From Polyangiaceae bacterium (GTDB taxonomy: Bacteria > Myxococcota_A > Polyangia > Polyangiales > Polyangiaceae), in contig JAHBVY010000004.1 of the NCBI GenBank assembly GCA_019637265.1, positions 62,001 to 126,000 of the forward strand: a DNA stretch of 64,000 nucleotides, written 5' to 3'. The notes below the pieces were generated by a model, which saw only the letters and a list, made by a program, of their open reading frames with translations, searched no databases and was not told the origin of the DNA. Made by a program: the position numbers and the translations under genes. This document shows, one piece after another, positions 21,372 through 34,796 of this stretch. How positions within the stretch are numbered: position 1 is the first letter of the stretch; the number at the start of each line of letters is the position of its first letter.

Positions 21372-23003
<1,632 letters not shown>

Positions 23004-23294
23004 TCACTTCTCGATGACGCCGAGGATGTCATCCTCGCGCAAAATCAGGTGCTCTTCCCCGTCGAGCTTCACCTCGGTGCCGGCGTACTTGCCGAACAGC
23101 ACGATGTCGCCCTTCTTCACGTCGAGCGCGCGCACGGTGCCATCTTCCTGGACCTTGCCATTGCCGACGGCGATGACCTTGCCCTCGATCGGCTTCTCCT
23201 TCGCGCTGTCCGGGATGATGATCCCGCCCTTGGTCTTCTCCTCTTCCTGCACGCGCTTCACGATCACGCGGTCTTGCAGCGGTCGGATATTCAT
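23004..23294 (-). CDS. groES: 10-kDa co-chaperonin GroES
   Basis: A 96-residue co-chaperonin with the full family pattern: [21 protein letters not shown], the mobile loop [66 protein letters not shown]. It caps the GroEL ring. I chose the ATG at 23294 by homology; the longer open frame upstream is the untranslated leader. It forms an operon with groEL. Confidence 0.98.
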
Positions 23295-23404: not shown

Positions 23405-23431
23405 TTAGCAGCCACCGGCGGCGACTGCTAA
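23405..23431 (-). promoter_or_regulatory. CIRCE-like (HrcA-type) operator of groESL
   Basis: TTAGCAGCC, a spacer of exactly nine bases, then GACTGCTAA. The canonical CIRCE is TTAGCACTC-N9-GAGTGCTAA, so the outer TTAGCA/TGCTAA and the N9 spacing are kept and the inner bases differ. It begins 9 nt downstream of the -10 element of the promoter at 23441-23468, where CIRCE is normally found. The same arms recur at 32697-32723. Confidence 0.8.
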
Positions 23432-23440
23432 CGGCGCGGG

Positions 23441-23468
23441 AACGTAGCCACCTGTTTCATGGAGTCAA
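23441..23468 (-). promoter_or_regulatory. Sigma70-type promoter of groESL
   Basis: On the minus strand TTGACT (23468-23463), a 16-nt spacer and TACGTT (23446-23441). The expected start point falls just before or in the CIRCE-like operator, leaving a leader of roughly 140 nt to groES. Confidence 0.65.
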
Positions 23469-23499
23469 CCGGCGCCCCCAAGTTTTGTTGTCCACAGGC

Positions 23500-23523
23500 T
23501 AACTCATTGATTTCATTGAGTTA
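23500..23523. promoter_or_regulatory. Palindrome upstream of the groESL promoter
   Basis: TAACTCA and TGAGTTA form perfect 7-bp arms around ten bases (ttgatttcat). It lies about 30 bp upstream of the -35 element in a short AT-rich island and could bind an activator or repressor. Confidence 0.5.
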
Positions 23524-23576
23524 TTCTGAGTGTTGGGCTCGGGGGTTTGGCATCGCGCTGGATGACGCGCTGCGTC

Positions 23577-23602
23577 GTAGGGCAGGCCCCCGTGCCTGCC
23601 CT
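23577..23602. repeat. REP-like palindrome (GTAGGGCAGG family), copy 3
   Basis: GTAGGGCAGGC, a short GC loop, then GCCTGCCCT. It shares the GTAGGG-GG layout with the copies at 3145, 6206 and 46549, although the arm sequence differs. Confidence 0.6.
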
Positions 23603-23620
23603 CTGGCAGCGACTTAGTCA

Positions 23621-23636
23621 GCGGTGCCGTCCAACC
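23621..23636 (+). repeat. GCGGTGCCGTCCAACC dispersed repeat
   Basis: One of five copies in the window; others at 28236-28254 (inverted), 28315-28333, 34816-34834 and 47033-47053. All lie between genes. Confidence 0.75.
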
Positions 23637-23795
23637 GGCTCTTCAACCCTTGCTCAGCATCGAGGTGCTCTCCAAGACCGCACGGATCCTCCAGTAAGGT
23701 CGGGGACCGTGGTCGCAGTGCGCCCCGACGCATGAACAACGCGTTCAGAGACGTTCATGGCGCATCAGGAGGGAGTGAACCCCCCCCCTCCTCCC

Positions 23796-24389
23796 TCACT
23801 GGACGCGGATCAACGCGAAGGGGCGTGAGGTGCCGTTCAAGGTGCCGCGCCCCACGATGTCGCCGCGGCTGTTCACGTCGACCGCGCTCGTGAGCACCCA
23901 GCCCGAGCCCGCTGGCAAGTAGTCGTTCAAGTCGCTGATCACCCCGTCGCGCCACAGCACGGCGCGGTTCGCGAGCCCCGCGATCTGCTCCACCTGCCCC
24001 ACGACCCAGCCCTGATCCGTGATGGCGACGCAGGTGCCACCCACCTCGTGATAGCCCTCGTCACAGTCGCAATGGTCGCCATGGGGGTCACCATGCGGCC
24101 CGCAGGGGTTCGTCGCGACCACGCAGGTGCCGCCCACCTCTTCGTAGCCGGGGTCACAGTCACAGTGGTCGCCATGGCTGTGCCCATGGGCACCACAGGG
24201 GTCGTCGGTGGCGACGCAGCTGCCGTCCACCTCCTCGAAGCCAGCGACGCACTGACAACTGCCGCCCTGGCGCTCTTGGTTCTCCCCGCACGCGGCCGCC
24301 TTGGGCTCTTCGTCATCGCTCCCGCAGCCCACGACCAGCGCCAACCCAACCCACCAGGGCGCCCAATTCTTCATCCGCAACAGGCTCAT
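23796..24389 (-). CDS. His-rich EGF-like lipoprotein with HAF-like tail
   Basis: A 197-residue predicted lipoprotein: signal MSLLRMKNWAPWWVGLALVVG, then Cys22. Three tandem Cys-rich EGF-like units with a 31-residue period follow (residues 34-58, 65-89, 96-120). The last two carry histidine clusters: HGHSHGDHCDCD (H68/H70/H72/H75) and HGDPHGDHCDCD (H99/H103/H106), which look able to bind zinc or a similar metal. The C-terminal 70 residues (AVLWRDGVISDLNDYLPAGSGW...AVDVNSRGDIVG) resemble a single HAF extracellular repeat. The start at 24389 has a good ribosome site (AAGGAGAATCGG). An element shared with the COG0523 region lies 58 nt upstream (24447-24461). A periplasmic metal-binding role is inferred. 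Confidence 0.75.
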   Translation of the reverse strand: MSLLRMKNWAPWWVGLALVVGCGSDDEEPKAAACGENQERQGGSCQCVAGFEEVDGSCVATDDPCGAHGHSHGDHCDCDPGYEEVGGTCVVATNPCGPHGDPHGDHCDCDEGYHEVGGTCVAITDQGWVVGQVEQIAGLANRAVLWRDGVISDLNDYLPAGSGWVLTSAVDVNSRGDIVGRGTLNGTSRPFALIRVQ

Positions 24390-24446
24390 CCGATTCTCCT
24401 TCAGCTCGAGGCACCCCCCGACACGCAAGGGCCTCTTGTCTCAAAC

Positions 24447-24461
24447 GCAATTACGTTGCAA
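24447..24461 (-). promoter_or_regulatory. Candidate metal-responsive operator (TTGCA-N5-ATTGC), copy 1
   Basis: On the minus strand TTGCA-acgta-ATTGC, preceded by CTTT. The same TTGCA-N5-ATTGC layout is at 25221-25235, and the 9-mer CTTTTGCAA is common to both regions. It lies 58 nt upstream of the His-rich lipoprotein start. Confidence 0.5.
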
Positions 24462-24542
24462 AAGAAATCCGGCTGTACCTCAGCGCGCGAGCCCACGAAA
24501 ACGCCGGTCGTAGGGCCCGCGTTCAGGTGCGCCCCGCGCAGC

Positions 24543-25208
24543 TCAACCCACGGTGCTGAGCGTCCACACGAGCCGCACCACGCCCGTGTTCTCGATGGGC
24601 GGTGACCGATGCACCGCGCCTCGGCTGTCCGGGTGCAGCGCGCCCTTCATCAAGAGCACGTCGCCAGCGGCGGCGCGGCGCACCCAGCTCGCGTCGCGAA
24701 CCGCGCGAGCGTTCGCCTGGGTGGGGCAGGCCGTGGGGTGCTCCAACGCCTCGCGACGCACCGCCTCCTCGGGCAGCCACTCCGTGCCCGGGCCCACGTA
24801 GGTCGAGAGCAGGCGGTAGCGCACATAATCACAGTGAAACTTGCGACACTGATCGCCGCGGATGGCGGCGAGCTGCGCGCGCACCATCCCGGGCCCAGCG
24901 TGCTCCGTGAACCGGCGGAGCAAGCGCCGCAGGTCCCGCTCGAGCCACGCGCGCACCGGCTCCTCCAAGCCACTCGTCAGAGACCTATACCACCCCTCAT
25001 CGCCCCATAGCTCCAGCGCCTCACCCGTGCGATCCAGCGTGGGTGCGCTGGGCGCCCAAGCAGCGAGCTGGCGCGCCGCTCCCGGAGGCAACGCGCGCCG
25101 CCAACAAACCAAGTCGACGTGAGGCTCACGGATCGCGGCGAGCCCCGCCGCCGTCACCCCCACGCGCCACGACCCACTTGGTGCACCCAATCCGCTCGGC
25201 TGGTTCAT
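24543..25208 (-). CDS. DUF1826 family protein
   Basis: A 221-residue cytoplasmic protein with the DUF1826 landmarks: [30 protein letters not shown] in the middle, and [12 protein letters not shown]...[23 protein letters not shown] at the end. The FHxD and VHRSPP histidines look like the iron ligands of a 2-oxoglutarate dioxygenase-like double-stranded beta helix, but the activity is not established. In Proteobacteria the family is often found beside COG0523 GTPases in zinc-starvation (Zur) regulons. Here it is divergent from such a GTPase and shares its 93-bp promoter region, which supports the same role. Confidence 0.85.
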
Positions 25209-25220
25209 CCCTCCATTTTA

Positions 25221-25244
25221 TTGCACTTGTATTGCTTTTGCAAT
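25221..25244. promoter_or_regulatory. Candidate metal-responsive operator in the DUF1826/COG0523 divergent promoter
   Basis: TTGCA-cttgt-ATTGC at 25221-25235 overlaps a palindrome ATTGC-tttt-GCAAT at 25231-25244. The surrounding 50 bases are the most AT-rich of this part of the window. It lies 13 nt from the DUF1826 start and 58-81 nt from the GTPase start, so one bound repressor could control both. Zur is the expected regulator from gene content; the motif itself is not a textbook Zur box. Confidence 0.5.
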
Positions 25245-25301
25245 TTGATTACATCTGCTCCCGCGTCGAGGCGCGGCGCGCAGCCGCGAGCCCTCCGCGC
25301 G

Positions 25302-26558
25302 ATGAAGGCGATGAACACGAACCTGGAGCGACCCCCCATGCCCCCCCTCCCCGTCACCGTCCTGAGCGGCTTCCTAGGCGCCGGGAAGACGACCTTACTG
25401 AACCACGTCCTCGCCAACCGTGAAGGCCGCCGCGTGGCGGTCATCGTCAACGACATGAGCGAGGTGAACATCGACGGCGAGCTCGTGAAGCGCGGTGACG
25501 CGGCGCTCGGGCGCACCGAAGAGCGGCTGGTCGAGATGACCAACGGCTGCATCTGCTGCACGCTGCGAGAAGATCTGCTGGTGGAGGTGACGCGCCTCGC
25601 CGCCGAGGGACGCTTCGATCACCTGCTGATCGAGTCGACGGGCGTCGGCGAGCCCATGCCCATCGCCGCCACCTTCTCCTTCCGCGATGAAGCAGGGCAC
25701 AGCCTGTCCGACGTCGCGGCGCTGGACACCCTGGTGACGGTGGTGGACGCCGAACGCTTCCTCGACGACTACCACTCGGCCGACGACCTGAGCGATCGCG
25801 AGCTCGCGGTGGGCCCCGAGGATGAGCGCTCGCTCGGCGACTTGCTCGCGGAGCAGGTCGAGTTCGCGAACGTGCTGGTGCTCTCGAAGGTAGACCGCGT
25901 CACTGACGAGCACGTCGCGCGGCTCGAGGGGGTGCTGCGTCATCTGAACCCCAGCGCGCGCGTGGTCCGCGCGAGTCACGGCGCGGTGCCGCTCGACGCG
26001 GTGCTGGGCACCCAGCTGTTCGATCCGGAGCGCGCCGCGGAGTACGCGGGGTGGGCGAAGGAGCTGGCAGGTGAGCACACCCCGGAGACCGAAGCCTTCG
26101 GCATCATCAGCTTCGTTTACCGAGTGCGCCGCCCGTTCCATCCTGAGCGCCTCCACGCGCTGTTCGCGCGCAGCTGGCCGGGAGTGCTGCGCGCCAAGGG
26201 CTTCTTCTGGTTGGCGAGCCGGATGGACGGCGTCGGCTCCTGGTCCATCGCAGGGCGCTCACGTCAGGTGGGCTGCGCTGGCATGTGGTGGGCCGCCGCG
26301 CCCCAGGAGCTGTGGCCGGAGGACACCGAAGCGCGCGCGGAGATCGACGCGCGCTGGCAGGCGCCGTTCGGCGATCGGCGCCAAGAGCTGGTCATCATCG
26401 GCTCGAAGATGGACGAAGGCGGGCTCTGCGCGGCGCTGGATGTCTGCCTCCTCACCGACGCCGAGCTGATGGAGGGTGAGCAGGCTTGGCAGCGCTACCC
26501 CGATCCGTTCCCGCCCTGGAGCGCCGAAGAGGACGAGCTGACTCAAGAGGCGAGTTAG
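25302..26558 (+). CDS. COG0523 family GTPase (CobW/ZigA-like metallochaperone)
   Basis: A 418-residue G3E GTPase from the ATG at 25302 (other ATGs at 25311 and 25338 are possible). Walker A is GFLGAGKTT (residues 23-31), the metal-binding CxCC motif is C83-I-C85-C86 in [12 protein letters not shown], and the G4-type motif is LSKVDR. The C-terminal CobW_C domain starts at about 262 ([23 protein letters not shown]). Such GTPases deliver zinc or other metals to target enzymes when the metal is scarce. The neighbouring DUF1826 gene and the His-rich lipoprotein point to zinc rather than cobalt. There are no cobalamin synthesis genes in the window. Confidence 0.9.
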
Positions 26559-26608
26559 CCTGTAATACTGACGATATGCCCGCGGCGCTCCTCGTCGTCT
26601 GGCGTGAG

Positions 26609-26640
26609 GAGGCTCGAGGTCTGATGAAGGCTCGAGCCTC
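26609..26640. terminator. Stem-loop between convergent COG0523 and ompA-like genes
   Basis: GAGGCTCGAG and CTCGAGCCTC form a perfect 10-bp stem with a 12-nt loop, 50 nt past the GTPase stop and overlapping the stop codon of the OmpA-family gene (26639-26641). No T-run follows on either strand, so a role as a transcript-end structure is likely but unproven. Confidence 0.5.
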
Positions 26641-27895
26641 ACCACAGCCAGCCGAGGGACACCTCGAGGTAGGGGGCGGCGTCGAACAGGTCTTCCATCA
26701 GGTCGTCGAGGCCCGCTTGGTAAACGTCCGCGTCGAACGCCGGTAGGTTGCTGTTGAACCTGGAGCGCCCCAGCTCCCCGCGCTCACCCTGCACGCCGAG
26801 CAGCGCCGCGATGCGGAAGCGGCCGCTCGAGCGGTACCCGTAGCCCACGCCCAGGAAGCCGCCGAGCGAGGTGGCGGTGGCCTCATAGTCAGCTTGAATG
26901 CCTGGTGTGTCGGACTCCCCCTCGATGCCGTACGAGCTGAACATCGCGCCCACGTCGAAGACGATGCTGTGCCGCTCCATCGGCCAGAAGCGCAGGCGCC
27001 CCGGCACGGTGAAGTTCACCGCGGTGCCGTCCACCTGCACGAAGCCCCGCTCGGTCTCGAAGGTGCTGACGCCCACGGAGAGCCCAGCGGACACCTCGAG
27101 CCAACAGGTCAGCTCGGCCGCGAAGGCGGCGCCGGCCACCGCGTTCGGCCCCAAGAGGTTGACGTGCAAGCCCAAGCGCTGTGGGCATTTCCCCGAGGAA
27201 TCATCCACCTCAGCCACGGCGGGGCGCGCTGAAGGCTCCTGAGCCACGCCCAGCTCCTCCACCTCCTCGTCTCGCGGCGCCTCCTGCTCCGCCTCACGCG
27301 CGAGCGCTGCGGCGCCGGCGGTCACCGTGAACACCGCGCGGCGGTTCTTCTGCCAGGCCTCCTGACAAGGCGCCGGGTCCGCGGGGGCGCGGTTGTGACA
27401 CTCCGGCGGCTCCGGCATCGCCGGGCGGCTCTCACCGTAGCCCACCGAGGTGAGGCGACGCTCGTCGATGCCCTCCTCCACGAGCCGCTTCTTGAGGCTG
27501 GCCGCGCGACGCTTCGACAGCTCTCGATTGTAGATCTCGCTGCCGCGTGAGTCCGTGTGGCCCTCCACTTGGAGGTGCACGTCAGGGTGACGTTGCAAGT
27601 AGGCGACCAGCTGCTTCAGCACCTCGGTGGTGCCAGCGTCATTGCGCAGCTCCGCGCTGTCGTACTCGAACTCGATGTCACCGCGGTAATCGAGGCGACC
27701 GTCAGCGTACTGAATCACAGGGCGCCAGCGCGCCTCGCCCCCCTCCAGCTTCACTGAGCCGCTCGCCTCCACGCCCCCGGTGCGCGCCCCCGCGCTACCA
27801 CGAGCGCTAGCGCTCCCGCGCGCCACACACCCCAGCGCGCTCACCGAAACCAAAGCCAACGCCACACAGCCCTCCCAGCTTTTCACGAGCCTCAT
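26639..27895 (-). CDS. OmpA-family lipoprotein with C-terminal barrel-like domain
   Basis: A 418-residue predicted lipoprotein: signal then Cys23 in SALGC, starting at the ATG at 27895 with a strong ribosome site (GGAGGTGAG). An OmpA/MotB peptidoglycan-binding domain lies at about residues 70-195 (IEFEYDSAELR, VEGHTDSRGSEIYNRELSKRR, SVGYGESRP, NRRAVFTV). After an acidic Glu/Ala/Pro linker (205-235) there is a Gly-rich beta domain of about 180 residues ending in an aromatic residue (VSLGWLW), like an outer-membrane barrel. The order, with the peptidoglycan-binding domain first and the barrel-like domain last, is reversed compared with classical OmpA. Two paired cysteines (CHNRAPADPAPC) sit in a loop of the OmpA domain. 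Confidence 0.85.
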   Translation of the reverse strand: MRLVKSWEGCVALALVSVSALGCVARGSASARGSAGARTGGVEASGSVKLEGGEARWRPVIQYADGRLDYRGDIEFEYDSAELRNDAGTTEVLKQLVAYLQRHPDVHLQVEGHTDSRGSEIYNRELSKRRAASLKKRLVEEGIDERRLTSVGYGESRPAMPEPPECHNRAPADPAPCQEAWQKNRRAVFTVTAGAAALAREAEQEAPRDEEVEELGVAQEPSARPAVAEVDDSSGKCPQRLGLHVNLLGPNAVAGAAFAAELTCWLEVSAGLSVGVSTFETERGFVQVDGTAVNFTVPGRLRFWPMERHSIVFDVGAMFSSYGIEGESDTPGIQADYEATATSLGGFLGVGYGYRSSGRFRIAALLGVQGERGELGRSRFNSNLPAFDADVYQAGLDDLMEDLFDAAPYLEVSLGWLW

Positions 27896-28235
27896 GCTCA
27901 CCTCCACAAGGCGCCTCACGCGGCGCTTCACCTATTTATTACTACGTTGAAACACATCTTCAGGCGCGATCCGTGTGCCCACCACGCGCCTCATCACGCT
28001 CAGCGAACGGCACCACCCAGCGCCCAGCCCACGTAGCCAGGTGCCTGAACGACTGATCACGATGCGTGACTCGAGCCGCCTCCAGCGATGCCGAAGCGCA
28101 CACAAAGCATGCAACGTGCCACCCCCCCCAAGAAATCAAGGGTTTCGTGCACGTGAGCACCGAGAGAGCCCCCGGCAATATCCCCACCGAAAAGCAGCGC
28201 TCGAGTCAGCTCACGAAGCAGGTTGGAGGGTTCAG

Positions 28236-28333
28236 GGGGTTGGACGGCACCGCGTCGGTAAGTTCACACGAGACCGCACCGCTCGACGGCGCTCGAGCTC
28301 CCTGAGCCTCACTGCGCGGTGCCGTCCAACCCC
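28236..28333. repeat. 98-bp unit bounded by perfect 19-bp inverted repeats
   Basis: GGGGTTGGACGGCACCGCG at 28236-28254 and its exact reverse complement at 28315-28333 enclose 60 bp. The arm is the same sequence as the single GCGGTGCCGTCCAACC repeats elsewhere. The layout is that of a small non-autonomous element or of a hairpin-forming unit. Confidence 0.85.
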
Positions 28334-28469
28334 AAGAAAACCCGCGTTCAGCCTACGGAAACGGAGCGCACAGCGGGAACCAAGCGCAGGGGAGACGGAG
28401 CGCTACGGAAACCCTGCGCAGCGGAGAACCCAGCGGCGATGAAGCCAAGAGTCGGTGGATGTCGTCATG

Positions 28470-28525
28470 TTGCGCACCTTGTGCGCAAGGCCGCGATCGA
28501 TCGACTTGGCTGAGCGATCGATCGC
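28470..28525. promoter_or_regulatory. Palindromes upstream of the first Ser/Thr kinase
   Basis: TTGCGCA-N5-TGCGCAA at 28470-28488 is a perfect interrupted palindrome. GCGATCGATCG at 28493-28503 and the 12-bp palindrome GCGATCGATCGC at 28514-28525 follow. They lie 136-191 nt upstream of the kinase start. A related TGCGCAAA-C-TTTGCGCA palindrome is at 46666-46682. Confidence 0.5.
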
Positions 28526-28660
28526 GATCAGGCGTCAGGGCTTGCAGCAGGTTGGCAGGGGCGGTTACGGTGCGAGATCGCGCGCTCGCGTCTCTAGCCA
28601 GCTCGGTACTCGCGTTCGCAGTTCGAGAGGGTTGGGAGGCGGTGCGCAGGGAGGCGACGT

Positions 28661-30646
28661 ATGCAGCTCCAAGCCGGAAGTCAGCTCGCTCAGTACACCT
28701 TGCTCGAGCCCCTTGGTCGGGGAGGTCAGGCCACCGTGTGGCGTGTGCGCGATCCGCAGCAACCGGGCGCCGAGCTGGCGGTGAAGCTGGTGCCGCTGGT
28801 CGGGCGCACGCACACCCAGATCGAGCGCGTGAGACGCGAGGCGGACCAGCTACGTCAGCTGAGCCACCCCTCCATCGTGCAGGTGCACGGGACACCCATC
28901 GAGGATCCGCAGCGCCAGTGGCTTGGGGTGGTGATGAGCTACGTGGACGGTAAGTCGCTCGAGACGGCGATACGTCAGGGCGGGCTCTCCGCGCGGCATC
29001 GCTGGCTCGTGCTGCGTCACCTGACGGCGGCGCTGGCTCACGTGCATGAGCGGGGGCTCATTCACCGCGACGTGAAGCCGGACAACGTGATGTTGGTGCG
29101 CGACTTCTGGGAGCACCCAGAGGACGCTCGGCAGCTCAAGCTCGTGGATTTCGGCATCTCGGTGTCCACCACTGGGCAGCAGCCCCCACTGACTCAGGCG
29201 GGCTATGTCTCGGGCACCCCGCCCTACATGGCGCCCGAGCGGCTGAACCCGCACCACTTCCGCGAGCCCGCTGGGCCACGCCAGGACTTGTTCGCGCTGG
29301 GTGTGCTCGCGTGGCAGTTGTTCGAGCAAGGGCCTCACCCAACGGGGCTCCGCAGCAACGCGGGGCTACTCGACTTCGAGCGCGTCTATCGGGAGGCGTC
29401 CCGCATGACGTGGCCACCCGCCACGGGGAACGTGGAGCTGGATGAGCTGCTCAGGGCCACCTTGCCCATCCACGCTAGCGAGCGGGCGCGCGACGCGGGC
29501 GCGTTGCTCACCCTGGTGGATGCGTTGGTACAGCGCGTGGGCGTCGTCACCGCCCCGCTCGACCCGTACGACGGCCTGCCCACTGAGATCTCGCTCCCGC
29601 CCACCACGGAGGACATCCCGCTCCAAGCGTCACCACCTCAGTACCACGCGCCACGCGCAGCACCTCGGGCAACCCCGCACGTCGCCACCCAGGATCCCGC
29701 CACGTGGTCAGTCCCCACCACTAATACTGGGGTCGCGGTCCCCACGCTCCCCACGCAGCTCCCTACGGCCCACGCAGCACCTCCTACCGCAGGACCTTGG
29801 GTGGGGCCTCAGCACCCAGCGATTCCACTGACTCAGTCGGCGGCCGCTCACACGGCGCCTTCAGCGCCTCATGGCGCGCGGCGGATGAACTGGGGCGCGA
29901 TCGGCGGCATCACCTTCGGGTTGGGCGCCTTGTTGCTGCTTGGCGCGGTCTTGCTTGGCGGCGGTACGTGGGTCCTGACGAACCAGCCTGCTGGAGCGAG
30001 CATCCCTCCACTCGCGAGCACTGGCGCACCGTCCCCGGCGCTCGGCGGGGATCCACCTCCACAGCAGCCTGCGCCTCAGGCTGCGCCTGCGCCTCAGGCT
30101 ACGCCTGCGCCGCAAACGAAACCAGAGCCCGACTCCGTGCCCAGCGGCTGCGACCCAGAGGCGCCGTGTGTTTGGGCGACACCCAAGCGCACCTGCTGTC
30201 CCTCCGGCTTTGATTGCGGCGGTCCCTGCGGAGGAGCCATTCCAGCTAGCGAGCGCTTCCTGCTTCGCTACGGCGGTGGGGGGGACGGCAAGGTGACGCT
30301 CGAGCGCTCAGTGGTCGGTGGCCGGGTGTGCACCAGTATCCCGGGCAGCAAGGGACGCATGTGCTTCCCGGTCACCGAAGGCGACATCACCCTCAAGACG
30401 CGGCATCCCATCACGGGTGGTGATCTCGCCCGTGGTATCGACGTGCAGGTATACGACGCGAGAGGGAGGCTCATCGCGAGCGTAAACTACCGTCAGCCCT
30501 TCACCCGTGGCGTGACGTGCAAGGGAATCCTCGTAAAAGGCTTCACCGGCGACCCTCGCGTAAAATTAGTCAGTCTATTTGTAGATCCGGAAGGTCAAGC
30601 ACCCCGACGCTGTGAAGGAAGGCAGCTCAGCTTCGGCCAAGACTAG
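28661..30646 (+). CDS. Transmembrane Ser/Thr protein kinase (PknB-like), copy 1
   Basis: A 661-residue Hanks-type kinase. The kinase domain (about 12-290) has all catalytic parts: the Gly-rich loop GRGGQATVWR, the lysine in LAVKLV, HRDVKPDN, DFGIS and the activation-end motif GTPPYMAPE. A 15-residue insert lies between HRDVKPDN and DFG. A Pro/Thr/Ala-rich linker (about 300-410) leads to one membrane helix (about 412-440), then a Pro/Gln/Ala-rich stalk and a C-terminal extracytoplasmic domain of about 165 residues opening with a Cys-rich knot (SGCDPEAPCVWATPKRTCCPSGFDCGGPC). The ribosome site is GGGAGG. The second kinase follows closely and is a paralogue over the whole length. Confidence 0.95.
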   Translation: MQLQAGSQLAQYTLLEPLGRGGQATVWRVRDPQQPGAELAVKLVPLVGRTHTQIERVRREADQLRQLSHPSIVQVHGTPIEDPQRQWLGVVMSYVDGKSLETAIRQGGLSARHRWLVLRHLTAALAHVHERGLIHRDVKPDNVMLVRDFWEHPEDARQLKLVDFGISVSTTGQQPPLTQAGYVSGTPPYMAPERLNPHHFREPAGPRQDLFALGVLAWQLFEQGPHPTGLRSNAGLLDFERVYREASRMTWPPATGNVELDELLRATLPIHASERARDAGALLTLVDALVQRVGVVTAPLDPYDGLPTEISLPPTTEDIPLQASPPQYHAPRAAPRATPHVATQDPATWSVPTTNTGVAVPTLPTQLPTAHAAPPTAGPWVGPQHPAIPLTQSAAAHTAPSAPHGARRMNWGAIGGITFGLGALLLLGAVLLGGGTWVLTNQPAGASIPPLASTGAPSPALGGDPPPQQPAPQAAPAPQATPAPQTKPEPDSVPSGCDPEAPCVWATPKRTCCPSGFDCGGPCGGAIPASERFLLRYGGGGDGKVTLERSVVGGRVCTSIPGSKGRMCFPVTEGDITLKTRHPITGGDLARGIDVQVYDARGRLIASVNYRQPFTRGVTCKGILVKGFTGDPRVKLVSLFVDPEGQAPRRCEGRQLSFGQD

Positions 30647-30666
30647 CTCCGCGTGCCCAGCACACC

Positions 30667-30722
30667 GTTAGCCCAACGTACTTACCTCAGCCCGCGGCAT
30701 ATCGTCAGCCAAACGTATTTAG
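30667..30722 (+). promoter_or_regulatory. Direct repeat between the two kinase genes
   Basis: GTTAGCCCAACGTACTTAC (30667-30685) and GTCAGCCAAACGTATTTAG (30704-30722) match at 14 of 19 positions and are 37 nt apart. They lie 21-76 nt upstream of the second kinase start and may be binding sites of a regulator or processing signals. Confidence 0.45.
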
Positions 30723-30742
30723 TCGAATCACAGCGCACACCG

Positions 30743-32668
30743 ATGCAAGCCGGAACTCAGCTCGATCGCTACCGACTGCTCGAGCCCCTGGGGAGAGGGG
30801 GTCAAGCTGCGGTGTGGCGCGCGCGCGATCTGTTGGCGCCGGGCGGCATCGTCGCGCTGAAGCTGGTGCACTTGGTTGGGCGCAGCCCCACGCAGGTCGA
30901 GCGGGTGCGGCAGGAGGCGCGCCAGCTGCAGCAGCTCCATCACCCGTCCATCGTGCAGGCGCACCGGCAGTTCGAGGAGCCGGAGCTGCTCGGTGTGGTG
31001 ATGAGCTACATCGACGGTCAGTCACTCGACGCGGCGATTCGCAAAGGCGGGCTCTCTCCGGAGCACCGTTGGTGGGTGCTCCGTCACCTGACGGCGGCGC
31101 TCGCCTACGTGCACGAGCGGGGCGTCGTGCACCGCGACGTGAAGCCGGACAACGTGGTGCTGACCCGCGACTTCTGGGAGCACCCTGAAGATCCAAGCCA
31201 ACTGAAGCTGGTGGATTTCGGCATCGCGGCGCCGCTCTCGGGGAAGAAGCGGCTCACCCAAGAAGGCTGCACCCCCGGGACGGCGCCCTACATCGCGCCG
31301 GAGGTGGTGACGCTCTCCCACTTCGCTTCCCACCCGGGGCCACCGCAAGATCTGTTCGCGCTCGGGGTGCTCGCGTGGCAGCTGTTCGATCACCCAGACC
31401 ACCCCACGGGCCTCGCCATGAGCGCGAACCTGTTCAGCTTCGCCGCAGCCTACCGCGAAGCGGACCGCGCCCACTGGCCACCAGCCACGGGCGACGCGGC
31501 GCTGGATGACCTGCTCCGCGCCACGCTCCCCTTGCACCCCGACGCGCGCGCACAGAACGCCGGCGAGCTGCTCACGCTGGTGGACGCGCTGATCGTGCAG
31601 CGCGCCTCGATGGTCAGCGGTGACACCATCGTGAGCTATGGGTCGATTGGTCAGTCAGGTATGCTGCCCGATACTGACCCGACCCACCCCACGACCAGCA
31701 CCGGCGTGGAGCTGCCCACCACAGCGGATGACCCAACGCCGCCAGGACAGCCACCACCCCCTGCATCGTCAGCACGACCACCCCCTCAGCCTCAAGCAAG
31801 CGGACGGAGGGGGACTTGGTATCTCGAAGGCCTCCCCGATCTCACCCCCTTCGCCCTACCGACCATCAACACCAGCGAGGCTCCCCCCGCCACGCACAGC
31901 AGTCCAGCATACTCGCCGCCGCCAGCCTACGACGCGCAGCGCTCTCATGGGTCACCCTACACACCGGCAGCTCGTCTGACATCACCTCACGGCGCGATGC
32001 AAGGAGCGCCGGGGCAAAGACGCTCAAGCTCGGTCGGTGGCTTCATCGCAATGCTCGGCGCTTTGGTCCTCAGCGTTGCCGTCATCATCACTGGTGCATG
32101 GCTACTCTACGAGCGAGCTTCCAAAGACCCTTTGTCCTCGAACCCCGCGACCCCAACACTGGCACGCCACCCTGAGACGCCACCAGCAACATGGCTCCCA
32201 TCGGGATGCAACGGCCCACTCTGCAGCAGCAAGGAGTGCTGCATGTCCGGCTTCAGCTGCAACGGCCGCTGCTACGAATACCTCGGCCCCAATGAGAGCT
32301 TCTTGCTCCGCTACAGTGGTATCGATCCGTTGCTTGATCACAGAGGAGGTGTGGTGTGCTTTGTCGTCTCGGGCACTTCGCGACACACCTGCGTCGCTGT
32401 CACTGACGGCGGGCACCCCCAACCGCGCCTAGCCGTGACCGGGGGTGATCTCGCCCGCGGAATTGATGTGCACGTGTACAACGCGAACGGGAAGCTCCTC
32501 GCGAGCCATTGGAAGTATCGCCGGGACTTCCAACGCGGGGTGATGTGCGAGGGGTTCTGGGTAACATTCACCGACCCCGCCGTGAATGTAGTCAGTTTCT
32601 GGGTCGATCCGCCAGACCAAGCACGCCAACGCTGCGAGGGCTCTCAGCTCGTCGTTAGCCAAGAGTAG
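30743..32668 (+). CDS. Transmembrane Ser/Thr protein kinase (PknB-like), copy 2
   Basis: A 641-residue paralogue of the kinase just upstream, starting at the ATG at 30743 by alignment (MQAGTQLDRYRLLEPLGRGGQ against MQAGSQLAQY in copy 1). HRDVKPDN, DFGIA and GTAPYIAPE are intact. The 290-residue kinase domain is strongly conserved between copies; the Pro/Ser/Thr-rich linker is not. One membrane helix lies at about 438-463. The extracytoplasmic part again opens with a Cys knot (SGCNGPLCSSKECCMSGFSCNGRC) and keeps ESFLLRYSG and the VTGGDLARGIDVHVYNANGKLLAS core. The pair looks like a tandem duplication that kept the sensor fold and changed the linker. No clear ribosome site precedes the ATG. Confidence 0.93.
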   Translation: MQAGTQLDRYRLLEPLGRGGQAAVWRARDLLAPGGIVALKLVHLVGRSPTQVERVRQEARQLQQLHHPSIVQAHRQFEEPELLGVVMSYIDGQSLDAAIRKGGLSPEHRWWVLRHLTAALAYVHERGVVHRDVKPDNVVLTRDFWEHPEDPSQLKLVDFGIAAPLSGKKRLTQEGCTPGTAPYIAPEVVTLSHFASHPGPPQDLFALGVLAWQLFDHPDHPTGLAMSANLFSFAAAYREADRAHWPPATGDAALDDLLRATLPLHPDARAQNAGELLTLVDALIVQRASMVSGDTIVSYGSIGQSGMLPDTDPTHPTTSTGVELPTTADDPTPPGQPPPPASSARPPPQPQASGRRGTWYLEGLPDLTPFALPTINTSEAPPATHSSPAYSPPPAYDAQRSHGSPYTPAARLTSPHGAMQGAPGQRRSSSVGGFIAMLGALVLSVAVIITGAWLLYERASKDPLSSNPATPTLARHPETPPATWLPSGCNGPLCSSKECCMSGFSCNGRCYEYLGPNESFLLRYSGIDPLLDHRGGVVCFVVSGTSRHTCVAVTDGGHPQPRLAVTGGDLARGIDVHVYNANGKLLASHWKYRRDFQRGVMCEGFWVTFTDPAVNVVSFWVDPPDQARQRCEGSQLVVSQE

Positions 32669-32696
32669 CTCCGGCACGCAACTCACTTCCCGCGCT

Positions 32697-32723
32697 TTAG
32701 CAGCCGGCTCACCCGACTGCTAA
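32697..32723 (+). promoter_or_regulatory. Second CIRCE-like operator, upstream of the 32906 gene pair
   Basis: TTAGCAGCC-ggctcaccc-GACTGCTAA: the two arms are identical to those of the groESL operator (23405-23431) and the spacer is again nine bases but of different sequence. The arms extend by two bases on each side (CT...AG). TTCCCGCGC stands just before the arm here and also between the -10 and the arm at groES. It lies 28 nt past the kinase stop and 183 nt before the next start codon. Confidence 0.7.
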
Positions 32724-32905: not shown

Positions 32906-33517
32906 ATGACTGACCACGAGCACTCCCCAACCATCGAGCTCGGTGCGGACGTGGGCGGCTTCTTCCAAGAGGCCGTCGGCGAACGCGCCCGGCGCGGAGG
33001 CTATGAGGCCTCCGACGCCACCGTGACTTACGTCGGCGCGCTGCTCGCCGACTACGCTCGGCCGGACAGCTTGAGCCAGGAGGCGCTGAGCCGCCCCGTC
33101 ACCCTGCTCCTCAGCGAGGCGCAGCAGTGCCAGGGGCTCGAGCGCTTCGAGCGCCTGCGCGGCCTGGGGGACGCCGTGCTCTACATCTCGAGCTTCTTCT
33201 CGGAGCACATCGAGCGGCGCGGGGTGGAGCTTGGCTACGTGCGTCGCGTGGGCGCCACCGCCTATCACACCGCCGCCGCGATGATGGGGCGCGACCACAC
33301 GGGGCCCGACGTGTTCAGCGAGCTCGGCAGCAAGTTCGATATGTTCGCGGCGCTGCTCGCGGAGGTAGCGGAGTCACTGCGCGCGGCGCAGAGCATCACC
33401 TCCACGGACGTGCTCAAGCTGTATGAGCGTTGGACGCGCACTCGCTCGGCGCCGCTCGCCGAGGCGCTGGCGCGCGCTGGCCTCACGCCGATCACGGGGA
33501 GCGCCACCGTCCACTGA
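32906..33517 (+). CDS. Conserved hypothetical protein behind a CIRCE-like operator
   Basis: A 203-residue, mostly helical, soluble protein with no signal peptide and no family that I can name. Visible features are an acidic N-terminus (MTDHEHSPTIELGADVGGFFQEAVGERARR), a helix-rich core (SRPVTLLLSEAQQCQGLERFERLRGLGDAVLYISSFFSEHIERRGVELGYVRRVGATAYHTAAAMM) and a C-terminal amphipathic helix. The ATG is preceded by GAGAGGAG. The next gene starts 13 nt after its stop, so they form a two-gene unit. The operator at 32697-32723 suggests control together with groESL and hence a role in protein quality control or stress; this is inference from regulation only. Confidence 0.8.
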   Translation: MTDHEHSPTIELGADVGGFFQEAVGERARRGGYEASDATVTYVGALLADYARPDSLSQEALSRPVTLLLSEAQQCQGLERFERLRGLGDAVLYISSFFSEHIERRGVELGYVRRVGATAYHTAAAMMGRDHTGPDVFSELGSKFDMFAALLAEVAESLRAAQSITSTDVLKLYERWTRTRSAPLAEALARAGLTPITGSATVH

Positions 33518-33530
33518 CATCGAGGCACGC

Positions 33531-34130
33531 ATGAGCCGCACCGCTCGAGCCCTACGCCGCGCCGCCTCCGACGTTCAGGCGCGGCTCGCGGGCTACTACC
33601 AGCTCGAGCCGGGCGTCCCCGTGGCAGACTACGTTTTGCCCACCGCGCCCGGCTCGCGCGAGACGCTGCTCGTTCGTCAGGTTGGCGATCATTTGGAGCT
33701 GCGGCTGCTGCTCCCCAAAGACGTGAGCCTCGGCCCTGAGCTCCACCGCGCGCAGCCGACCGATGGCTTCCTTCAGTTGGTGGAGGGGGTGAGCCACTTC
33801 ATGCTGGTGGTGGAGCGCGCGCGGCGCGGGCTCCCCACCACGCAGCTGGAGCTGGAGCTTCAAGCGGAGGTGGACAAGTTCGCGCTGCTCGGCGGCGAGC
33901 TCCCGCCCCACGCCGGGCGCCACATTCACCAGCGGCTGTATGAGCAGGTCAGCTTCCTACACCACGCGGGCAGCGAGCAAGGCGCGCGCTATCGCCTGGC
34001 CAATGGACTCGCCGCGCGCTTCGTCCACCGCCTGATCGGCCGTCGCCCCGCCCTGAAGCGTCGAGCGCTTCAGCGCTTCCACGGCGCAGGCCAAGCGGAG
34101 AAGCTGTGGCTCGTAGCGCGCGGCACTTGA
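33531..34130 (+). CDS. Conserved hypothetical protein, second gene of the pair
   Basis: A 199-residue soluble protein of unknown function. It is helix-rich and charged, with LEPGVPVADYVLPTAPGSRETLLVRQ, a strand pair (VGDHLELRLLLPKDV) and FLQLVEGVSHFMLVVERARRGLPTTQLELELQAEVDKFALL followed by a basic C-terminal third rich in Arg and His (HIHQRLYEQ, GRRPALKRRALQRFH). No enzyme motif is visible. It follows the 32906 gene by 13 nt and should be read from the same transcript. Confidence 0.75.
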   Translation: MSRTARALRRAASDVQARLAGYYQLEPGVPVADYVLPTAPGSRETLLVRQVGDHLELRLLLPKDVSLGPELHRAQPTDGFLQLVEGVSHFMLVVERARRGLPTTQLELELQAEVDKFALLGGELPPHAGRHIHQRLYEQVSFLHHAGSEQGARYRLANGLAARFVHRLIGRRPALKRRALQRFHGAGQAEKLWLVARGT

Positions 34131-34154: not shown

Positions 34155-34796
34155 ATGGGTGAGATGACTCATCGTACGGTGCTTCACGCCATGGTCGTGG
34201 CGCTCTCGGTCGCCGCCTGTAGCAACGCGGAGGAGGCGGCGCCTGGGCGCGACGCGGGGAGCGAGGCGGGGCTGACCGAGGCGGGCGTGTGCAACGCTCG
34301 CGAGACTCAGCACCCGAGCTTTGGTCAAGAGCACGTGCCGCGTTGCTCCCAGGTGAGCTACGAGACGAGCCCGCCCACCTCCGGGAACCACTACGGCAAC
34401 TGGCCAGAGTACCGCGTGTACGAGCGGCCGTTACCGCACGGATTCATGGTGCACGCGCTGGAGCACGGCGCGGTGGTGCTCTCCTACAACTGCCCGGAGG
34501 GGTGCGCCGAAGAGGTGGCCGCCGCCGAGCGCTGGATCGCGGAGGAGCTGCCGGGGGACGTGTTCTGCGCCTCGCAAGGCATGCCACGCCAGCGCGTGAT
34601 CTTGACGCCCGACCCCAAGCTCGAGAGCCGCTGGGCCGCCGCCGCCTGGACCTGGTCGCTCACGGCGGACTGCTTCGATGAAGGCGCTTTCATGGCCTTC
34701 TATCAGGCGCACTATGACCGTGCGCCGGAGCAAATCTGCTCTGATGGCATCCCGATCAGCGTGGACGCAGGGATCCCGGAGGACTGCGGGGAGTAG
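34155..34796 (+). CDS. DUF3105 lipoprotein
   Basis: A 213-residue predicted lipoprotein (signal around MTHRTVLHAMVVALSVAA, then Cys). The mature part matches DUF3105: SYETSPPTSGNHYGNW, then HGFMVHALEHGAVVLSYNC with its conserved HxxEHG, and a later segment ILTPDPKLESRWAAAAWTWSLTADCFD. It carries eight or more cysteines, which suggests disulfides outside the cytoplasm. The family has no established function. An ATG at 34164 would give a cleaner signal peptide. It is 24 nt downstream of the unknown gene pair and could belong to the same transcript. Confidence 0.85.
   Translation: MGEMTHRTVLHAMVVALSVAACSNAEEAAPGRDAGSEAGLTEAGVCNARETQHPSFGQEHVPRCSQVSYETSPPTSGNHYGNWPEYRVYERPLPHGFMVHALEHGAVVLSYNCPEGCAEEVAAAERWIAEELPGDVFCASQGMPRQRVILTPDPKLESRWAAAAWTWSLTADCFDEGAFMAFYQAHYDRAPEQICSDGIPISVDAGIPEDCGE

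Follow-up and report, generated by a model that had tools for sequence, protein, structure and literature searches.

A variant CIRCE element before groESL in a Polyangiaceae bacterium is very probably an HrcA operator with a putative twin before a conserved gene

In the window, the 64,000-nucleotide stretch of a Polyangiaceae genome analysed here, the inverted repeat at 23405-23431 is most likely the HrcA operator of groESL written in a permitted spelling of CIRCE, and the site at 32697 the matching element of a conserved gene, hyp1, the pair now lying separated by about 9.2 kb. We give this reading a probability of about 0.86. It concerns the following features:

21372..22994, - strand: groEL (Cpn60; PF00118, E 1.2e-75).
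23004..23294, - strand: groES (Cpn10; PF00166, E 5e-37).
23405..23431, no strand assigned: putative HrcA-type operator (CIRCE variant) of groESL; coding-strand arms TTAGCAGTC-N9-GGCTGCTAA; at the position of the canonical CIRCE in relatives.
23441..23446, - strand: -10 box TACGTT of groESL; the operator begins 9 nt after it, and the boxes recur in relatives.
23463..23468, - strand: -35 box TTGACT of groESL; TTGAC is kept in 26 of 27 groES upstream regions.
23469..32696, no strand assigned: block of about 9.2 kb between groESL and hyp1, encoding an EGF-like lipoprotein-type protein, DUF1826, CobW and OmpA-family proteins and two Ser/Thr kinases.
32697..32723, no strand assigned: putative second operator of HrcA type, 182 nt upstream of hyp1; TTAGCAGCC-N9-GACTGCTAA on the + strand; a similar repeat stands before hyp1 of a same-genus genome.
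32906..33517, + strand: hyp1, a conserved all-helical protein of 203 aa without annotation; its gene lies divergently beside groESL in most of the relatives covered.
33531..34130, + strand: hyp2, without annotation, next after hyp1; order kept in the same-genus genome.
34155..34796, + strand: gene for a DUF3105 protein, probably the third in an operon with hyp1.

Direct reading of the groESL coding (-) strand gives TTGACT, 16 nt, TACGTT, 9 nt and then TTAGCAGTC-N9-GGCTGCTAA, with the groES ATG at 23294; the promoter and repeat that the first-pass annotation had described at 23405-23468 are exact. It had also seen, correctly, that the inner CACTC/GAGTG is replaced by CAGCC/GACTG and that two sites share the change: the twin at 32697-32723 has identical arms, while its spacer and flanks differ. 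Each site differs from the strict canonical CIRCE, TTAGCACTC-N9-GAGTGCTAA, by 3 mismatches. The outer TTAGCA/TGCTAA is intact in both, half-site positions 7-8 reading GT and GC where the canonical element has CT, and both sites match the broad HrcA consensus TAGCA-N15-TGCTAA exactly. A generic sigma-70 scan with a threshold of 9 of 12 bases did not report the groESL promoter. TTGACN-N16-TANNTT occurs in 23 of 27 groES upstream regions from relatives and this genome, the box spacing is always exactly 16 nt, and in these regions the operator begins 8-16 nt after the -10 box.

Such repeats are rare in this genome. TTAGCA-N15-TGCTAA matches twice in 5.7 Mb, both times in the window; from base composition, 0.027 matches are expected across the genome and 0.0003 in a stretch the size of the window, and the reversed-pattern control gave 0. 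Allowing up to 2 mismatches to TTAGCANNC-N9-GNNTGCTAA brought up no site in this genome beyond the known pair (2 matches; control 3).

The genome has one hrcA, on another contig (NCBIfam equivalog TIGR00331, 266 bits against a cut-off of 197), and its product has an N-terminal extension; the first-pass annotation had made its reading hang on this gene being present, so that objection does not apply. Canonical or hybrid CIRCE elements of relatives sit in the same promoter-proximal place, behind a TTGACN-N16-TANNTT promoter, and not elsewhere upstream of groES, the other place where trouble had been foreseen. A groES gene was found in 35 genomes (4 others had no groES match and were left out), and a CIRCE-like repeat precedes it in 31 of the 31 that have hrcA and in 0 of the 4 that lack it (Fisher one-sided 1.9e-5, kinship ignored). 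Several marks of an HrcA operator in the broad sense are found here: hrcA in the genome, placement at the groESL promoter and, in relatives, a canonical CIRCE in the corresponding place. The proposal that the placement fits HrcA repression of groESL holds up as well, on the presence of hrcA, the place of CIRCE in relatives and the way the operator follows hrcA. On this genomic evidence, 23405-23431 is very probably an HrcA operator, because two sites stand against 0.03 expected, hrcA is present, relatives have CIRCE and the four genomes lacking hrcA have no site.

The second site is best understood from the gene it precedes. Counting relatives and this genome, hyp1 is present in 28 of 39 genomes, and the 21 distinct groES-hyp1 regions of relatives are all divergent and 180-561 nt long. 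At least one CIRCE-like site lies in 20 of these 21; the exception is a genome without hrcA. In 40 further stretches, hyp1 occurs in 36, with groES divergent in 28, on the same strand in 1 and absent from the stretch in 7; of the 28 divergent pairs, 23 have a CIRCE-like site by our criterion and 5 have none. Between the groES-proximal site and hyp1, a second CIRCE-like repeat is found in 12 of the 21 regions (mean 0.485, maximum 3, in 200 dinucleotide shuffles). These second sites are degenerate and by criterion missing from the other 9 regions, and in several close relatives the left half of the second repeat reads TTAGCAGCC or nearly so when taken in the direction of hyp1. In the same-genus genome G001, hyp1 is preceded by TTAGCAGCC-N9-CACTGCTAA, and some 83 nt further on stands a groES-type promoter, TTGACT-N16-TAGGTT; the contig then stops with TTAGC, 5 nt into the groES operator.

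We infer from these arrangements that hyp1 ancestrally faced groESL over a shared intergenic region, and that here each side kept one operator, now about 9.2 kb apart. The two sites would carry the same change because they descend from the groES-side and hyp1-side elements of that divergent promoter region. At each promoter the distance from site to gene is inside the range of relatives. On the simplest reading, the block of other genes was inserted and so parted the two promoters; a transposition or an inversion would leave the same picture. HrcA may also control hyp1, as the conserved repeat suggests. Another separated pair is possibly present in the stretch L308 (G284:C81), where hyp1 lies at 873-1451 on the - strand with a CIRCE-like TTAGCCACC-N9-CGCTGCCAA at 1718 and no groES within the stretch.

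Two further observations concern the block itself. The Ser/Thr protein kinase genes at 28661-30646 and 30743-32668 stand in tandem with the same layout and are probable duplicates. Between the divergent DUF1826 (24543-25208, - strand) and CobW/COG0523 (+ strand) genes lies a palindrome, TTGCACTTGTATTGCTTTTGCAA, at 25221-25243, which resembles a Zur box, making this presumably a zinc-regulated DUF1826/CobW pair.

We surveyed how widely the altered spelling occurs. Within the class we covered 317 genomes. An exact TTAGCANNC-N9-GNNTGCTAA site is present in 64 of them, 65 sites in all, and the reversed pattern matched in 4 of the 317, once each. Positions 7-8 of the 130 half-sites are CT in 107, GT in 16 and GC in 7, with no other of the 16 possible dinucleotides. 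Hybrids, which are common, pair CACTC with CAGTC (13) or with CAGCC (4). Both arms are changed in this genome, at both of its sites, and in the class otherwise only once, in G135, a genome of another family, between hyp1 and groES; near this genome the double-arm variant is uncommon.

Named genomes were also scanned for TTAGCAGYC-N9-GRCTGCTAA; at least 117 stretches matched, 80 of them given as loci, and the matches listed are mostly from Clostridia, Chloroflexi, Patescibacteria and Lysobacteraceae. The 80 listed loci comprise 73 symmetric CAGTC/GACTG sites, 5 mixed ones and 2 CAGCC/GGCTG. In 46 of the 80, the variant is no more than 400 nt upstream of groES (32), groEL (2) or hrcA (12); 30 of the remaining 34 listed loci supplied 32 flanking ORFs, among them 12 for RpoH, 5 for Hsp90 and one each for Hsp70, Hsp20 and an FtsH-type protein. 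Of the 50 variant-bearing genomes covered (56 were intended), at least 5 also have canonical sites and at least 9 have CACTC/CAGTC hybrids, the control matching in 0 of 50; hrcA-type genes are present in 45 of the 50, in 37 above the cut-off. A literature search with the arm sequence returned, among the matches listed, none on HrcA by title.

Two side observations came from these loci. At L140, L151, L157, L179, L181, L208, L209, L214, L215 and similar loci of Lysobacteraceae and neighbours, a CAGTC-type CIRCE is about 15 nt or less from the rpoH start, which suggests that HrcA may control sigma-32 in these bacteria. The groES upstream regions of L066, L086, L088 and L094, some of them paralogues, have asymmetric repeats in which TTAGCCACC or TTAGCCATC stands opposite GAGTGCCA[AG]; chaperonin paralogues perhaps have an operator type of their own.

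These surveys bear on how the altered bases should be explained. The first-pass annotation had favoured a lineage-specific HrcA specificity, in which the recognition surface of this lineage has changed so that CAGYC half-sites are now preferred over CACTC. Such a switch would account for a genome in which both sites are changed and no canonical CIRCE is left, and a few HrcA residues near the helix are indeed odd in this genome and its genus mate, for example GFDFS for GFDLS and RKHG for KKYG. The F of GFDFS, however, is shared by the HrcA of Thermotoga maritima, a match in PDB, and the AT-[ILV]-RN helix segment, where the annotation had advised looking, is conserved in G000 and in 12 HrcA proteins encoded beside CAGTC sites. 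Inspection of local alignments found no shared HrcA change in the recognition-helix segment, so we rejected the switch, to which we would grant only a very small chance. One of the 35 HrcA rows compared, that of G018, was translated out of frame and left aside. The proposal is further undercut by the occurrence of the variant in several phyla and by canonical, hybrid and variant sites standing together in single genomes.

Loss of function fares no better. Three mismatches from the canonical consensus at each site could mean that these HrcA operators are decaying and do little or nothing any more, but both sites have the same arms with perfect outer hexamers, hyp1 of the same-genus genome also has a repeat of this class before it, the arms recur independently in G135 between hyp1 and groES, and hrcA is intact. 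On this evidence decay is highly improbable, as the first-pass annotation had held. We think it just as improbable that the repeat belongs to another regulator with the same TTAGCA half-site: the second sites of relatives are quite divergent, as this would allow, but the groES site and hrcA co-occur perfectly in 35 genomes, the placement is identical to that of CIRCE, and across phyla the site is tied to hrcA, rpoH, htpG and groE.

In Waddlia chondrophila, ChIP-seq together with band shifts yielded the HrcA consensus TAGCA-N15-TGCTAA (PMC4989314), which is reused in PMC8762339. Both sites in the window conform to it without a mismatch; Waddlia, in which binding was tested, belongs to another phylum. 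The groESL site is very probably an ordinary HrcA operator in a tolerated spelling that the consensus published in PMC4989314 already covers. Like the canonical CIRCE at groESL, for which delta-proteobacteria in Table 8 of PMC545781 are an example, the window sites are 9-N9-9 inverted repeats with outer TTAGCA/TGCTAA in a genome with hrcA, and 23405-23431 also lies at the groESL promoter; unlike it, they have GT and GC for CT at positions 7-8. In Myxococcus xanthus, two CIRCE-like repeats precede one operon, groESL1, as in 12 of the 21 regions of relatives here (PMC9040617). According to that source, M. xanthus HrcA binds CIRCE1groESL1 and CIRCEgroEL2 and not CIRCE2groESL1. A CIRCE-like repeat therefore need not bind HrcA, and the second element of groESL1, reportedly unbound, counsels caution for the hyp1 site.

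If 23405-23431 acts as we propose, an HrcA dimer on it, 9 nt past the -10 box, would reach into the region where groESL transcription is expected to start and would block RNA polymerase. HrcA is inactivated by heat and by titration of GroE; groESL transcription would then go up. Binding by HrcA, repression and heat induction at groESL are what this arrangement predicts. For heat shock, loss of HrcA activity with a rise in transcription is in part documented in PMC8762339.

In the phylum, 125 of 282 sampled genomes have a match to the hyp1 profile, but no search pointed to a function for the family. None of 24 members matched Pfam, no NCBIfam model was found, and a sequence search of PDB gave no convincing match. 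The AlphaFold model of hyp1 (mean pLDDT 85.9) had no Foldseek match to PDB at E 0.001 or better, and its best Z in VIA-align, 6.6, is no higher than unrelated helical models would be expected to give. Hyp1 is not among the known chaperones. Tentatively, and at somewhat less than even odds, hyp1 together with hyp2 and the DUF3105 gene may be a so far overlooked component of the chaperonin stress response with its own HrcA-type operator, possibly as a partner of GroE or HrcA.

These results indicate that strict CIRCE searches miss very probable HrcA operators. TTAGCA-N15-TGCTAA should serve in their place, because this class uses CT, GT or GC at positions 7-8 of each half-site and the CAGTC form is found repeatedly, in several phyla. 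What is new here is a reason for there being two sites, namely that the second would serve hyp1. If this is true, second CIRCE elements such as CIRCE2groESL1 of M. xanthus gain a role as operators of a divergent gene. The most interesting by-product of the analysis is the conserved hyp1 gene family itself, tied to groESL through position and operator.
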